DNA of 5,150 nt from an uncultured Acidimicrobiia bacterium (GTDB lineage: Bacteria > Actinomycetota > Acidimicrobiia > UBA5794): the NCBI GenBank assembly GCA_905480055.1, contig CAJQOW010000253.1, positions 1-5,150 on the forward strand, in the 5' to 3' direction. A program made the position numbers and the translations under genes. The notes under the pieces are model-generated. The model had not been told where the DNA came from and made no database searches. It saw nothing but the letters and a program-made list of their open reading frames with translations. Below, piece after piece: positions 1 to 5,150 of the stretch. Each line of letters opens with the position of its first letter. Position 1 is the first letter of the stretch.

Positions 1-460
1 CCTCGATCACGAAGTCGGGATCTGATCTGGTTGCGTCTTGGGGCGAGAACTCCACATCATCGCCCCGCCGGGACGCCCGCGCCACGCTGTCTGTGACGCT
101 GCGCAGCACCTCGTCAGGCGTCATCCGGAGCATCTGCTCCATATGGATGGGGGAGGTGGACACGAACACGTGGACACGCTTGCGAGCCGCACCCTCGAGT
201 GCGTCTGCAGCCCGCTCGATGTCGTCGGGATGCGTGCGCGCAAGGGATGCGATCACGGGGCCTTGGACTTCCCTGGCGATGCGGGCCACGGCTTCGTAGT
301 CGCCGGGGCTCGATGCGGCGAAACCCGCCTCGATCACGTCCACGCGAAGCTTGGCGAGCTGCTTTGCGATGACGAGCTTGTCGTCGGGCGACAGTGCGAT
401 GCCTGGTGCCTGCTCGCCGTCGCGAAGCGTTGTGTCGAAGATGATGAGTTTGTCCTGCAT
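1..460 (-). CDS. leuA: 2-isopropylmalate synthase, N-terminal part (runs off left edge)
   Basis: LeuA condenses acetyl-CoA with 2-oxoisovalerate to give 2-isopropylmalate, the first committed step of leucine synthesis in the cytoplasm. The 153 visible residues are the start of the HMGL-like TIM barrel. Residues 8-17 read FDTTLRDGEQ, the family signature with the catalytic Arg13 and metal-binding Asp14. EAGF (44-47), SSPGD (50-54), the STSPIHME segment (101-108) and VEFSPQDATR (136-145) follow in the expected order. The signature comes within ten residues of the start, as in E. coli LeuA, so this is not the N-terminally extended form of mycobacteria and corynebacteria. The start at 460 is supported by GAAAGGA seven bases upstream. 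About 360 residues, including the C-terminal leucine-binding domain, should lie beyond the left edge. It is the last visible gene of the ilvBNC cluster, 120 bases after ilvC. Homocitrate or citramalate synthase are alternatives, but the sequence pattern and neighbours favour LeuA. Confidence 0.95.
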   Translation of the reverse strand, partial: MQDKLIIFDTTLRDGEQAPGIALSPDDKLVIAKQLAKLRVDVIEAGFAASSPGDYEAVARIAREVQGPVIASLARTHPDDIERAADALEGAARKRVHVFVSTSPIHMEQMLRMTPDEVLRSVTDSVARASRRGDDVEFSPQDATRSDPDFVIE

Positions 461-580: not shown

Positions 581-1594
581 CTAGACATCATCTGCAGGGG
601 TCTTGGCAACCATGAATGTCATCATGTCGCGAAGGCGCTTACCCGTGACCTCAACCGGGTGCTCTGCGATGGACGCACGGGCTGCGTTGAGGTTCGGTGA
701 CCCTGCCTCGTACTCCGCCATCCACTCCCTTGCGAACTCGCCCGACTGGATCTCGCCAAGGATCTTGGCCATCTCTGCCCTCGTCGCATCGTTGACCACC
801 CGTGGTCCTCGCGTCACGTCGCCGTACTCGGCGGTGTCCGACACCGAGTGGCGCATCCATTCAATGCCACCCTCGAACAGGAGATCAACGATCAGCTTCA
901 GCTCATGGAGTACCTCGAAGTACGCCATTTCGGGTGCATAGCCACCCTCGACGAGGGTGTCGAAGGACGCCTGGATCATGGCTGACACGCCACCACAGAG
1001 AATGACCTGTTCCCCGAACAGGTCGGTTTCGGTCTCCTCCTCGAAGGTCGTCTGGATGACGCCTGCGCGCGTCCCGCCGATGGCATGGGCATAGCTGAGG
1101 GCCAGGTCCAGGGCTCCGCCCGTTGCATCCTGATGGATGGCCACGAGTGTCGGAACGCCCGACCCCTCGACGAACTGTCTGCGAACGAGATGGCCCGGGC
1201 CCTTCGGGGCGACCATTGCGACATCGACGTCTGGCGGAGGTGTGATGAATCCGAAGTGGATCGAGAATCCGTGGGCGAACAACAGCGCATCGCCAGGGTT
1301 GAGCCTGGGGGCGATGACGTCGGCATAGAACGATGCCTGGATCTGATCCGGCACGAGGATCATGATCACATCAGCCCATTCGGCAGCGGTCTCGGGATCC
1401 ACGACCTTCAGGCCCGCATCAGAAGCTGCCTGGACCCGAGGTGACCCCTCGCGCAGTCCAACTACGACGTCCACGCCAGAATCCTTGAGGCTGAGAGCAT
1501 GAGCATGGCCCTGGCTGCCAAACCCAATGACGGCGACCTTGCGCCTCGTGATGAGGCCTGCATCGGCATCCTGCTCGTAGTACATCTTGACCAT
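581..1594 (-). CDS. ilvC: Ketol-acid reductoisomerase, class I (NADP+)
   Basis: IlvC isomerises and reduces 2-acetolactate or 2-aceto-2-hydroxybutyrate to the dihydroxy acids leading to valine/leucine and isoleucine, using Mg2+ and NADPH. The protein is 337 residues, the usual length of short class I enzymes. The Rossmann motif GFGSQG is at 24-29 and the cofactor loop GLREGSPR at 46-53. AHGFSIHFG surrounds His108, and APKGPGH holds Lys131. DLFGEQ gives metal ligands Asp191 and Glu195; the C-terminal knotted domain supplies Glu227, Glu231 (HELK) and Ser252 ([10 protein letters not shown]). All expected catalytic residues are present. I chose ATG 1594 because [11 protein letters not shown] is the usual start of this family and TAGGAG lies ten bases upstream; a longer frame to 1663 would run back into ilvN. 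The gap from ilvN is 13 bases, and the ribosome site overlaps the ilvN stop codon, suggesting coupling. The cofactor loop has Arg where a second Ser/Thr is common. Confidence 0.98.
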
Positions 1595-1604
1595 TGCTGT
1601 GTGG

Positions 1605-1610
1605 CTCCTA
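1605..1610 (-). promoter_or_regulatory. ilvC ribosome binding site overlapping the ilvN stop
   Basis: TAGGAG contains the ilvN stop codon TAG (1610-1608) and an AGGAG core, with ten bases to the ilvC ATG at 1594. It supports the short ilvC start over the in-frame upstream ATG at 1663, and ribosomes finishing ilvN would end on this site. Confidence 0.65.
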
Positions 1611-2111
1611 TACCGACTTGGCTTGCTTGCGTGCGCTTGACTTTGCATCCTTGGCGAGGGCAATGCGACCGGACTTCACCTGGCTCACGATTCCGTACGT
1701 TCGCATGATCTCGAGAAAGTCCTCGAGCCTCGTGGGTTCGCCAACGACCTCGAATGTGATCGTGGAAGCACCGACGTCGACCGCCTTTGCCTCGAAGATG
1801 TTTGCTGCCTCGAGGATCTCACCTCGCCGTACCGTGTCCGCGTTGACCCGAACCAGCATGATTTCACGCTCGATCGCCTCGCCGGGAGTGTGCTCGGTGA
1901 CCTTGATCGTGTGCACCAGCTTGTAGAGCTGTTTGACGATCTGCTCCATCTCCGGGCCATCGACCACCATCGTGATCCGAGAACGGGTCGGGTCCTCGGT
2001 TGGGCCGACCGCGAGGCTGTGGATGTTGAAATCTCGCCTTGCGAACATCGAAGCAATTCGTGCAAGGACGCCCGGTTTGTTCTCAACCGTGACCGAGATG
2101 ACGTGCTGCAT
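1608..2111 (-). CDS. ilvN: Acetolactate synthase small (regulatory) subunit
   Basis: This subunit binds the IlvB catalytic subunit, raises its activity and confers feedback inhibition by valine or other branched-chain amino acids. The 167-residue protein has an N-terminal ACT domain (about 3-77) followed by the ACT-like C-terminal domain starting at [11 protein letters not shown] (about 83 onward). Asn11, Gly14 and Asn29 line up by position with the E. coli IlvH residues of the valine site (motif VENKPG, then RRDFNIHSL), so valine sensitivity is likely. The tail from about 155 is Lys/Ala/Ser-rich. The ATG at 2111 shares its A with the ilvB stop (TGATG) and has GGAGG seven bases upstream, which decides this start over the longer frame reaching 2195 inside ilvB. 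The symbol could equally be ilvH; both names are used for this family. Confidence 0.97.
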
Positions 2112-2123: not shown

Positions 2124-2578
2124 GGTCCCATATAGATGATCTCGTTCGAGCCACCCGCCTTGATCATGGGAAACACCATCGCATCGGGGTCGCACACGAA
2201 CTCCATCACGACCGGGCGATCACTGACTGCCAAGCCCTTCTCGATCGTGGGAACCACGTCATCGGGATGCTCGGCTCGGAACCCAGCGCACCCCATTGCC
2301 TCAGCAAGCATCACGATGTCCGGGTTTGTGGCTGACAGCTCCGAACCCGAGAATCTGTGGTCGTAGAAGAGCTTCTGCCATTGGCGCACCATGCCGAGGT
2401 TTGCGTTGTTCATGACGGCGATCTTGACGGGGATTCCCTCAACAGCGGCCGTGATGAGCTCCTGGAAGGTCATCTGGAAACAGCCGTCTCCGTCGATGGC
2501 AATCACCATCGTGTCCGGTACTCCCTGTTGTGCACCGATGGCCGCTGGAACCGCATACCCCATGGTCCCGAGGCCACC

Positions 2579-2590
2579 GGAATTATCCAC
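2579..2590 (-). other. Frameshift point in ilvB (one base missing)
   Basis: On the minus strand this reads GTGGATAATTCC. The family sequence Trp-Ile-Asn-Ser needs TGG ATN AAT TCC, so one base is missing between 2585 and 2584. ATC is the likeliest original codon from local codon use. There is no slippery heptamer here to support programmed frameshifting. Confidence 0.85.
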
Positions 2591-3840
2591 GTGTTGGGTC
2601 GATCAAAGGACCAGAACTGTGATGCCCACATCTGGTGCTGACCGACGCCCGCAACCACGATCGTGCCTTCAGGAGCGTGCTTTGCAAGTTCGTCGATCAC
2701 GTACTGCTGTTGGATCGGTCCGGCTGGGTCCTGGTCATAGGCGAGGGGATAGTCACGTTGCCATATCGCAAGTTGCTCCATCCACGCTGAGCGGTCAGGA
2801 AGTTCACGATCCTCGAGCCTCGATGCACCCTTATCGATGAGCTGGTTCAGCACCGCCTTGGCGTCGCCGACGATCGGCACATCCGCCGTGCGAATCTTTC
2901 CGATTTCGGCAGGATCGACGTCCACATGGATGATGTTGGCGTGCGGTGCGAAGAACTCGGGATCGCCGGTAACCCTGTCGTCGAATCGAGCGCCGATCGT
3001 CACGAGGAGGTCAGCCTTCTGCATGGCGGTGCTTGCAGTGAAACATCCGTGCATGCCGGGCATGCCGAGGGTCAGCGGGTGTTCATCAGGGATGGCGCCC
3101 CTGGCCATGAGGGTGGTGACGACGGGCAGCTGCTGCTGCTCGGCAAACGCCTGCAACTCGGAGCTGGCGCCCGCCCGGATGATCCCGCCACCTGAGTAGA
3201 GCACAGGCCGCTCGGAGGCGAGGATCATGTCGATCGCTGCGCTCACCTGACGTGGATGGCCTTTGACCGATGGCTTGTAGCCCGGCAGGTGGATCTGACC
3301 TGCACCTTTCCAGTTGATCTCACCAGCGAGCGCATCCTTGGTGATATCGACGAGCACAGGACCCGGTCGACCCGTCGCTGCGATGTGAAATGCCTCTTTG
3401 ATCGTCGATGAGATCTCGTCGGTGCGAGTCACCAGGTAGTTGTGCTTCGTCACCGGCATCGAGATGCCCCATGTGTGGGCTTCCTGGAAGGCGTCGAGCC
3501 CGATCGACGTCGACCCAACCTGTGCAGTGATGGCAACGACAGGGATGGAGTCCATGTTCGCATCCGCCAGCGGCGTGATGAGGTTCGTTGCACCCGGTCC
3601 CGAGGTCGCAAATGCGACCCCGACCCTGCCGGTTGCGTGGGCGAATCCCGAGGCCATGTGCCCGGCGCCCTGCTCGTGCCTCGCGAGGATGTGGCGAATG
3701 CCGCTGTCGTGGATGGCGTCGTACGCCATCAGGATGGCACCGCCGGGTACGCCAAATACGACGTCAACTCCCTCGTCCTCGAGTGATCGGATGAGGATGT
3801 CAGCTCCGTTGAGTGTCTCAGCCATGTGGTGCTCCGGATA

Positions 3841-3869
3841 GAAAAGAACCCCCCGGTACACGGAGGGTT
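3841..3869 (-). terminator. Intrinsic terminator (attenuator) before ilvB
   Basis: On the minus strand AACCCTCC (3869-3862) pairs with GGGGGGTT (3854-3847) to form an 8-bp GC-rich stem with one G-U pair and a 7-base loop, followed by CTTTTC (3846-3841). It lies between the leader peptide and the ilvB ribosome site (3832-3837), four bases before the latter, so its only evident role is to stop transcription before ilvB when branched-chain amino acids are plentiful. Confidence 0.82.
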
Positions 3870-3870
3870 T

Positions 3871-3895
3871 GGCGCATCGGGTATGAGGATGCGCC
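3871..3895 (-). promoter_or_regulatory. Leader hairpin starting at the ilvL stop codon
   Basis: GGCGCATC (3895-3888) pairs perfectly with GATGCGCC (3878-3871) around a 9-base loop. The first G of the stem is the last base of the leader TAG stop codon, so a ribosome that finishes the leader peptide would cover the 5' arm, while one stalled at the Ile-Leu-Val run would leave the stem free. It may serve as an RNA polymerase pause hairpin or as part of the switch controlling the adjacent terminator, from which it is separated by a single base. The exact role is inferred. Confidence 0.65.
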
Positions 3896-3933
3896 TATGC
3901 GATAAGTACTACGAGGATGGTGAATGTGTTCAT
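3895..3933 (-). CDS. ilvL: ilv leader peptide MNTFTILVVLIA
   Basis: A 12-codon frame lies between the promoter and the terminator. It reads Met-Asn-Thr-Phe-Thr followed by six branched-chain codons ATC CTC GTA GTA CTT ATC, then Ala and TAG. Branched-chain codon runs of this kind are the hallmark of attenuation leader peptides of ilv operons, as in E. coli ilvGMEDA and Corynebacterium glutamicum ilvBNC. Scarcity of charged Ile, Leu or Val tRNA would stall the ribosome here and change folding of the following RNA. No strong ribosome site is visible; GGCGAC a few bases upstream is weak. The inferred transcription start is about 24 bases upstream of the ATG. The peptide itself probably has no other function. 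It is too short for ordinary gene calling. Confidence 0.8.
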   Translation of the reverse strand: MNTFTILVVLIA

Positions 3934-3963
3934 GGTTGTGTCGCCAATGTCGGCGTGTGTGCG

Positions 3964-3991
3964 AGTATGGCATCGCCGTGATGCATGTCAA
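3964..3991 (-). promoter_or_regulatory. Sigma70-type promoter of the ilv operon
   Basis: A perfect -35 TTGACA (3991-3986) is followed after 16 bases by CATACT (3969-3964), which keeps the key A2 and T6 of the -10 and is preceded by TGC, an extended -10. Transcription would begin near 3956-3958, leaving about 24 bases before the ilvL start and about 115 bases to the terminator. The spacer contains the perfect dyad GCATC-N5-GATGC (3970-3984), a possible operator. Confidence 0.65.
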
Positions 3992-4031: not shown

Positions 4032-5150
4032 ATGAACGCAGATGAACGCCAAGCCCTCCTGCCGATGGTGTCCATGGCACGCGACATCCTGGCCGACCTC
4101 GACGAGGATGACGTGCCTCCTCGCGTCATGCGCGTGGCCAAGAGCGCTGCACGAAGGCTCCCTCCACCACTCGAGCAGTCGCTCATCGACTACATCGCCG
4201 ACGACGCGTCGTTTCGGACCACGGTCGAGACCGTGTGGGCGGAAGACGGCACAAGCGACAGTGTCGTCGAGGCCTTTCTCGCGGACCCTGATCAGGCCGC
4301 CGCGTTGCTCGCCGCGGCCTCTGTCGCTGCGGAGGCCGATCGAAGTGCACGCGATGTTGAACGCCTTGAAGCGCTCGTGCAGCAGCTCGAAGCACAACAG
4401 GCACAGGCCAAGGCTCGTCTCGCTGATGTTCGAGCTAGCGCACGGCGCCAGGCGACCGATGCCAAGGCGTCGGCAAAACGTGCGAGGCTGGGGCTCGAAT
4501 CCTCGCTCACACAAGCCAGGGCCGACGAGGCAGCTGCCAACGAGGCGCTCGATGTGGCCAGCGAACGAATCACAATGCTCGAAGCAGAAGTCGCGGATCT
4601 CAAGGCGCGGCTGAAACGGCTTGCCGACCGCGAGACGAAACGTCATGTCCCCACAACCGCCCCAACCATCCAGATGTCGATTCCTGCAGGGGCGCCCCTG
4701 GACATCGCACAGTGGCTCGATGTTGCCGAGCGAACGCTGCGTCCATTTCGAGAGACGTCGGTGGGCTCGGATTCCGATGCGCGACGAGCCACGCTGGTTC
4801 TTCCGCCAGGGGTTGCACCGGATCAGCCCGAGTCCGTTCAGGCCCTTGCTGAGATGCCGGTTGGGATCGCGGTCCTGGATGGGTACAACATCGCCAGTGC
4901 CCTTGGCGTCGATGACTTTGCTGGCGCTGAGGGAAGGGAGCGCACACTGAGGGTTGCGCGGAAGCTCCATCGACACATCAGCGGTTCCACGATCGTGTTG
5001 TTCGACGCGGTGGGCATCGAGGGTAGGGAGTCGTATGTCTCCGATCTCGGCGTCGAGGTGCGATTCACCCGCGATGTTTCGGCCGATGACGCGATCGTCC
5101 ACCTGCTTGATTCCGGGACTTCGAGCACTGTTGTGATCACCAACGATCGG
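4032..5150 (+). CDS. Coiled-coil protein with C-terminal NYN (YacP/PIN-like) nuclease domain, runs off right edge
   Basis: The frame is open for 373 codons to the window edge. An N-terminal helical segment (about 28-70, PPRVMRVAKSAARRLPPPLE) resembles that of actinobacterial NYN proteins. An Ala/Arg/Glu/Gln-rich region without proline, about 98-202, has strong coiled-coil character, and a linker leads to the NYN domain from about 278. There VLDGYN gives Asp283 and Asn286, VLFDAVG gives Asp325, SADDAIV gives Asp352/353 and VVITNDR gives Asp372: the acidic residues expected of a PIN-like metal-dependent RNase. The rest of the domain should follow to the right. B. subtilis YacP (Rae1), of the same family, is a ribosome-associated mRNA endonuclease; such a role here is inference. 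No signal peptide or membrane segment is seen. The ATG at 4032 is the first in frame after the stop at 4005-4007; the upstream AAGGGTGG is a weak ribosome site. It diverges from the ilv operon with 98 bases to ilvL; I see no convincing promoter of its own. Confidence 0.88.
   Translation, partial: MNADERQALLPMVSMARDILADLDEDDVPPRVMRVAKSAARRLPPPLEQSLIDYIADDASFRTTVETVWAEDGTSDSVVEAFLADPDQAAALLAAASVAAEADRSARDVERLEALVQQLEAQQAQAKARLADVRASARRQATDAKASAKRARLGLESSLTQARADEAAANEALDVASERITMLEAEVADLKARLKRLADRETKRHVPTTAPTIQMSIPAGAPLDIAQWLDVAERTLRPFRETSVGSDSDARRATLVLPPGVAPDQPESVQALAEMPVGIAVLDGYNIASALGVDDFAGAEGRERTLRVARKLHRHISGSTIVLFDAVGIEGRESYVSDLGVEVRFTRDVSADDAIVHLLDSGTSSTVVITNDR

Follow-up and report, generated by a model that had tools for sequence, protein, structure and literature searches.

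A 5,150-nucleotide stretch of DNA from an uncultured Acidimicrobiia bacterium (the window) carries, upstream of ilvB, a short frame of branched-chain codons followed by two neighbouring hairpins, and the question it raises is whether this segment is an attenuator and, if so, how it switches. The initial annotation regarded it as a complete ilv attenuator of standard layout, tuned by charged Ile, Leu and Val tRNA. Leaders with terminators ahead of actinobacterial ilvB genes have been known since 2005, when their mode of regulation was called unclear and parts of an attenuator were missing from some leucine and cysteine leaders (PMC1262725). Later work dealt with ilvB leaders of Corynebacterium (PMC10272879; PMC11857589), Streptomyces (PMC8079986) and Mycobacterium (PMC13236596). 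We argue that a supply-sensing switch upstream of ilvB is very probably real, of a known general kind and of unusual layout. The element is likely to be a translation-dependent transcription attenuator of the ilvBNC-leuA operon, and one of a set found on branched-chain genes.

All parts of the element lie on the minus strand. A promoter scan returned a single promoter-like site, formed by a -35 element, TTGACA (3986..3991), and a -10 element, CATACT (3964..3969), the latter preceded by TG and placed 30 nt upstream of the leader start codon; the spacer is 16 nt long and 10 of 12 positions match the consensus. Because 1.3 such sites were expected from shuffles, this match alone is not above chance. 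The leader peptide frame, MNTFTILVVLIA (3895..3933), has 12 codons and a TAG stop, and reads M N T F T I L V V L I A stop, with the putative control codons Ile-Leu-Val-Val-Leu-Ile (ATC CTC GTA GTA CTT ATC) at 3901..3918. When the 330 nt upstream of ilvB were shuffled 2000 times with dinucleotides preserved, two of the shuffled sequences had a short open reading frame (ORF) with a run of at least six I/L/V codons. The G of the leader TAG is also the first base of hairpin P1 (8 bp, 3871..3895), which is followed by P2, the predicted stem-loop of an intrinsic terminator (9 bp, 3847..3869), both seen by folding and covariation. The U-tract of the terminator, CTTTTC, occupies 3841..3846, and a GGAG at 3832..3835 was picked by eye as the likely ribosome site of ilvB. 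The promoter-like pair, the 12-codon leader with its six I/L/V codons, P1 starting from the stop, and P2 with its U-tract, which the initial annotation had placed in this order ahead of ilvB, were all confirmed.

The 132-nt leader RNA folds with -38.1 kcal/mol (z -3.0), and an equal stability was reached by 0 of 200 shuffles. P1 and P2 stand side by side in the minimum-energy fold; because the two coexist, the layout, which had been taken for that of standard attenuation, is not the textbook one. Rfam release 15 gave no family at gathering threshold in the window, the best match below it being Phe_leader, with 19.5 bits against a threshold of 55. It is mainly because of its conservation in relatives that the element can be regarded as more than chance.

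The genes downstream follow the order ilvB-ilvN-ilvC-leuA, all on the minus strand. The N-terminal part of ilvB (acetolactate synthase large subunit) occupies 2503..3825, with its ATG at 3825; ilvN (acetolactate synthase small subunit) lies at 1608..2111, ilvC (ketol-acid reductoisomerase) at 581..1594, and leuA (2-isopropylmalate synthase), which is cut by the window edge, at 2..460. No leader element of its own was seen by eye for leuA in the 461-580 interval.

For comparison, genome contigs were scanned with the ilvB protein, and the best 80 of 254 relatives, mostly Acidimicrobiia, Actinomycetes or metagenome-assembled Actinomycetota, were kept as loci. For 73 of 81 sources a simple scan, some hits of which are spurious, reported a short ORF upstream with three or more successive I/L/V codons. 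Leaders were picked by hand from 58 relatives and the window, visual inspection supplied 11 further ones in which the run is broken or shorter, and a covariance model, R1, was built from 18 leaders. R1 matched 75 of the 81 sources (80 relatives plus the window, 18 of them model members) at E <= 0.1, and 70 at E <= 0.01. Among the unmatched sources, the element was visible by eye in L029, L030 and L074 and doubtful in L078, and none was seen by eye in L037 and L044. Related genomes had been proposed as a check on the initial annotation, and a loss of the codon run or the terminator did not occur there. Close relatives, such as L004/L005, L029/L030 and L075/L080, were kept in these counts, and the leaders are for this reason not independent events.

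Both hairpins carry a record of compensatory change. Changes on both sides of a pair occurred in 6 of the 17 pairs of P1 and P2 among 18 ilvB leaders, and in 12 of 17 among 27 mixed leaders, and in each case 0 of 500 shuffles scored as high. RNAalifold recovered only 10 pairs from the mixed MAFFT alignment A1, and the cleaner subsets A2 and A5 were used instead. In the coding part, the second-position T of four successive control codons was invariant across 18 aligned leaders; the invariant bases are the middle T of I/L/V codons, as expected if the run is read as codons. A promoter-like pair with at least 9 of 12 matches preceded 53 of 59 leaders, with TATAAT or CATACT taken as consensus and CATACT drawn from the same data. 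The distance from the -10 element to the start codon in these 53 ranged from 7 to 40 nt (median 16), and was within 12 nt in 20 leaders, the window with its 30 nt not among them; so short a distance fits leaderless or near-leaderless translation. In L046, L061, L064, L070 and L072, the end of the R1 match is separated from the downstream ilvB match by about 360-400 nt, in which a small ORF lies; that of L061 ends in RRDWTAWEFERQVRNLAHKLGCTVRRVETGPVEARP... by hand translation, and those of the other four look alike.

R1 also found second copies in the same genomes, upstream of citramalate synthase (cimA) and 2-isopropylmalate synthase (leuA), and a class-wide scan gave a match in 54 of 148 genomes under strict filters meant for large samples. 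Altogether, 134 leaders were tabulated. Each was assigned to a gene by its best match to reference ilvB, cimA and two leuA types, and a single example of each gene served to check the family name. The four leuB-ilvE cases matched no reference and were named from one family search (L127) and from resemblance by eye. Six of the 70 class hits that were fetched duplicated positions already in the count and are absent from the codon table, as are nine ilvB leaders seen by other means (L046, L061, L064, L065, L068, L069, L070, L072 and L078). Counted over the last eight residues, the 92 ilvB leaders are mixed (I92 L228 V137), the 19 cimA leaders contain I67 L0 V2, the 19 leuA leaders I3 L75 V2, and the four leuB-ilvE leaders I9 L2 V6. 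Citramalate synthase leads to isoleucine and isopropylmalate synthase to leucine, and the codon content therefore follows the purpose of the enzyme. The presence of a run is partly a product of selection, as R1 contains I/L/V codons, the stop was chosen by the longest run, and the earlier leaders were picked by hand; Ile without Leu in cimA and mainly Leu in leuA are explained neither by the codons in R1 nor by the longest-run selection. The proposed tuning by Ile, Leu and Val tRNA thus gains from the relatives, which keep the run and both hairpins and vary the residues of the run according to the pathway that the downstream gene serves.

A second model, R2, starts one codon before the stop and therefore lacks the codon run. 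Searched in 14 genomes chosen for their R1 hits, it gave 27 strong hits (E <= 1.2e-8), namely 14 at ilvB, 10 at cimA, two at leuA and one at leuS, all of them branched-chain genes; 12 of these were in its own alignment, A5, and 15 outside. The next hit, at E 3e-5, was a tRNA beside a terminator. At E <= 0.05 the same genomes gave 53 hits, the 27 strong and 26 weak ones, and no runs of other amino acids were found in the 10 of the 26 weak hits that were viewed by eye, these being terminators beside tRNAs or genes, or seemingly coding DNA. Because the stems of R2 come from branched-chain leaders, Trp or His versions with other stems would escape it. At E <= 1e-4, R2 had matches in 21 genomes of a class sample of 40 and in 19 of the 41 sampled from the phylum; these hits were partly inspected, and the weakest include the tRNA-terminator chance hit. 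In the phylum sample, an ilvB-like protein was present in 56 of 60 genomes, and 30 loci were retained; of the 25 loci read in a rough scan, 16 had a short ORF with an I/L/V run. A hairpin at the stop and then a terminator were seen by eye in 13 of the 16 (L197, L198, L200, L203, L210, L212-L217, L219 and L220), four of which (L197, L198, L203 and L213) are in genomes also held by the class samples; the leaders of L205, L208 and L222 are longer and of Streptomyces type.

Two details of the other copies may be added. At 230-296 of L187, an element with P1 at the stop lies upstream of the leucyl-tRNA synthetase gene (leuS), its leader ending in RLLRM; leuS attenuators had been predicted earlier in Streptomyces (PMC1262725). 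Three of the four leuB-ilvE leaders (L127, L133, L156 and L158) share the terminator stem CCGTCCACTTCGGTGGGCGG, the ilvB type being CCCTCC. Judged from sequence, what appears to be new is the occurrence of the element also on cimA, leuA, leuB-ilvE and leuS, with control codons that follow the product of the enzyme. The literature search, from which most subscription journals fell outside, yielded no description of the present leader family or of an Ile-only cimA leader. The change of control codons between ilvB, cimA and leuA amounts to a natural experiment showing that the codons matter, and R1 and R2 offer a way to annotate leaders that gene callers miss.

The choice among synonymous codons is also biased. 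GTA makes up 106 of the 137 Val codons in ilvB leaders versus 126 of 2348 in ilvB coding regions, and CTT 68 of 228 Leu codons versus 144 of 2132. TAG is the stop in 121 of 134 leaders overall, and in 86 of the 92 ilvB leaders. The preference for GTA and TAG may reflect a choice of sensitive tRNA isoacceptors. In M. tuberculosis the regulatory role has been assigned to GUA (PMC13236596), and for C. glutamicum both CUU and GUA are listed among the conserved control codons (PMC11857589).

Geometry and pairing tests kept 130 of the 134 leaders. In 125 of them the first base of P1 is 0-3 nt away from the T of the stop codon, and the linker between P1 and P2 is 0-6 nt in all 130. When the RNA was hidden up to 13 nt past the A site and the remainder folded (65 loci), the mean pairing of P1 fell from 0.96, when the A site lay 15 nt short of the stop, to 0.33 at a distance of 6 nt and to 0.00 at the stop itself. 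P2 stayed formed in every ribosome state at equilibrium; two Streptomyces-type leaders likewise showed no switch, and equilibrium folding was for that reason dropped as proof that an antiterminator is absent.

The search for an antiterminator was therefore based on transcripts cut just before the 3' arm of P2, with a 0.3 rise in pairing of the P2 5' arm as the cut. Three E. coli leaders were clearly detected: the pairing was 0.62 stalled in trpL, 0.60-0.90 in thrL and 0.67 in leuL, with 0.01 at the stop in each. By the same cut, no stall-dependent antiterminator was found in 127 of the 130 present leaders, in folds that ignore pseudoknots and proteins, the other three being L018, L028 and L157. 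In the window, the P2 5' arm pairs at 0.05-0.16 in stalled states versus 0.16 at the stop, below the cut. Partners were also swapped among the 92 ilvB leaders, and a clear preference for the own partner was seen only within P1 and within P2. For P1 arms or codons against P2 arms, exchanging the partner changed the duplex energy by no more than 0.45 kcal/mol, and most of these differences ran the wrong way, in a test that is blind to pairing between invariant bases; the own partner is favoured by about 0.2 kcal/mol in two pairings, codons with the P1 5' arm and codons with the P2 5' arm. Like E. coli trpL, thrL and leuL, the present family has control codons in a leader and an intrinsic terminator: a short predicted leader carries codons of the end products just before the switch, and a predicted intrinsic terminator precedes the first structural gene. 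Nonetheless, since no stall-dependent competing helix rose above the cut in 127 of 130 leaders (again in folds blind to pseudoknots and proteins), the switch that defines a classical attenuator was not found. This counts against the attenuator, as a classical one should have a competing antiterminator. Of the complete ilv attenuator claimed initially, a predicted translated leader that senses branched-chain tRNA and acts on a terminator thus stands, whereas the word complete does not, as no antiterminator was found. With 127 of 130 leaders lacking a detectable one, the question of how the switch works can be tested directly on a short RNA.

We propose that a ribosome translates the 12-codon leader. 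With ample charged Ile, Leu and Val tRNA, it would reach the TAG and cover the 5' arm of P1, which would be kept open; P2 would then form, and transcription would end at the U-tract. With uncharged branched-chain tRNA, the ribosome would stall on the early control codons, P1 would fold just ahead of it, and RNA polymerase would read through. In favour of this scheme, comparison among relatives shows a conserved leader that is read in codons, a choice of control codons that follows the product of the downstream enzyme, conserved P1 and P2, and a P1 so placed that a ribosome at the stop codon must cover it. The direction of the response would be that of the experimental models in M. tuberculosis and C. 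glutamicum, in which a hairpin after the control codons forms upon stalling and allows readthrough (PMC13236596; PMC11857589), and P1 has a position like that of the post-codon hairpin in those leaders. Replacement of LVVI by AAAA abolishes induction in M. tuberculosis (PMC13236596), and Val-to-Ala changes abolish the valine response in C. glutamicum (earlier work told in PMC11857589). In S. coelicolor, changes of control codons were without effect, as told in PMC1262725.

P1 might act on P2 through its closeness, although such closeness is not peculiar to the leaders. All 62 leader terminators have a hairpin of -10 kcal/mol or stronger within 6 nt upstream, but so do 12 of the 24 terminator-like sites outside leaders and 128 of 400 positions taken at random. 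The 24 are what was left of 34 sites once nine leaders and a reverse copy of a leader terminator had been set aside by eye, and the control holds few true non-leader terminators against a random background of 32%. A terminator hairpin such as P2 must close at its base inside the exit channel of the polymerase, and because of this a stiff hairpin 0-6 nt upstream could hinder it. We give somewhat less than an even chance to the idea that P1, lying 0-6 nt from the base of P2, blocks the full zipping of P2 without any shared bases. A ribosome at the stop would remove this obstacle to the closing of P2. In C. glutamicum, loss of the leader start codon lowered expression by 80% (told in PMC11857589), which is the opposite of what an abutting hairpin predicts without translation; a further hairpin exists in C. 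glutamicum.

It is unlikely, yet worth weighing, that the element is a classical attenuator in which the antiterminator was missed, be it a pseudoknot, a small overlap at the boundary, or a protein-assisted pairing of P1 or the codons with P2. Antiterminators are part of the published descriptions of the C. glutamicum and M. tuberculosis leaders (PMC11857589; PMC13236596), and since the antiterminator and terminator of C. glutamicum share only a boundary trinucleotide (PMC11857589), a very small overlap may suffice. Three of the 130 leaders (L018, L028 and L157) do pass the cut for stall dependence. Moreover, L205, a Streptomyces-type leader with visible complementarity, rose from 0.01 with the first codon stalled to 0.53 with the last, versus 0.25 at the stop, and fell narrowly under the cut, so that leaders from actinobacteria may call for a finer test. 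Against a missed antiterminator stand the clear detection of E. coli trpL, thrL and leuL by a test that gave no rise in the window, and the swapped-partner duplex energies of the 92 ilvB leaders, which differ by no more than 0.45 kcal/mol.

Comparison with the systems described so far bears on the same point. The Corynebacterium ilvBNC leader, or ilvB-II motif, resembles the window in its I/L/V peptide with CUU and GUA, its hairpin after the control codons, its intrinsic terminator and its ilvBNC genes (PMC10272879; PMC11857589). As described there, its frame continues past the control codons (MTIIRLVVVTARRLP), whereas in the window the stop follows soon after and P1 starts on it; and its antiterminator shares a boundary trinucleotide with the terminator (PMC11857589), whereas P1 and P2 of the window share no bases. 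The ilvB-II motif is defined by stems P1 and P2, a frame that spans most of P1, and a P1 loop able to pair with P2 (PMC10272879). The present leaders do not conform to this definition: P1 is at the stop in 125 of 130, no own-partner pairing of P1 with P2 was found among the ilvB leaders, and 127 of 130 are under the stall cut. The mycobacterial ilvB1NC attenuator is like the window in its LVVI control codons with GUA, and a ribosome at its stop codon is proposed to block the antiterminator, with codon replacement abolishing induction (PMC13236596); its two hairpins are described as mutually exclusive, whereas P1 and P2 of the window coexist. The Streptomyces ilvL, MRTRILVLGKRVG, shares with the window an ILVL run and a terminator upstream of ilvB, and is reported to be leaderless in S. 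lividans (PMC8079986). In L205, whose leader is of this type (MRTRILVLGKRVG), GGCAAGCG of the codons after the run is by inspection complementary to CGCTTGCC in the terminator, and no such complementarity was seen in the window. The pairing of GGCAAGCG with CGCTTGCC is a candidate antiterminator, in a system where codon mutants were reportedly without effect (PMC1262725).

The actinobacterial LEU element (PMC1262725) is like the leuA leaders of the present family in having a Leu-run leader upstream of leuA. Its base stem is formed by Leu codons and the leuA ribosome site (PMC1262725), and it is described as a pseudoknot at the ribosome site that is said to lack a typical terminator (PMC8079986). 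Unlike it, the leuA leaders of the present family carry P1 and an intrinsic terminator. The report on hairpin clusters as terminators (PMC8355165) is not pertinent to the question of the switch.

A second alternative, which we judge quite improbable, is that P1 is a pause and synchronising hairpin only, and that the choice about P2 is made otherwise, for example by contact between ribosome and polymerase. In the window, P2 contains a UG (3860/3859) 11 nt beyond the 3' end of P1, a distance typical of hairpin-stabilised pauses. However, the UG is by eye not kept in distant relatives, a pause hairpin has no need to abut the terminator, and, judged by the coordinates, both P1 and P2 stay wholly uncovered while a ribosome sits on the early control codons. 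A terminator that is leaky and constitutive, preceded by a short translated ORF and free of amino acid control, would agree with the ineffective codon changes in S. coelicolor (told in PMC1262725), but it is hardly credible, as runs of Ile alone go with cimA, Leu-rich runs with leuA and mixed runs with ilvB, and as the codon-free R2 matches only branched-chain genes at E <= 1.2e-8 in 14 genomes.

The preferred reading, a translation-dependent attenuator, can be extended to a broad actinobacterial group, in which one interchangeable device would sit on ilvBNC, cimA, leuA, leuB-ilvE and at times leuS, with codons swapped for each branch, no competing antiterminator, and a hairpin at the stop codon that gates the zipping of the adjoining terminator. 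As a whole, this extension is doubtful. If true, it predicts that blocking translation of the leader raises expression, the reverse of trp-type attenuation.

Two further observations concern the neighbouring genes. Near 2,580, at about residue 414, ilvB changes frame: the N-terminal ORF runs to a stop at 2503, and the C-terminal TPP domain reads from 2590 to 2111 on the minus strand, in another frame than the N-terminal part. The frame is open in relatives, for example over 626 aa in G001, and the change is either a sequencing error or a real break. On the plus strand, a divergent ORF of at least 373 aa (4032-5150) starts about 40 nt from the -35 element. It matched no Pfam family below E 0.006, with weak coiled-coil-like matches in the middle of the protein, and its C-terminal stretch, with VLDGYNI and VITNDR, resembles what we take to be an NYN/PIN-type nuclease.
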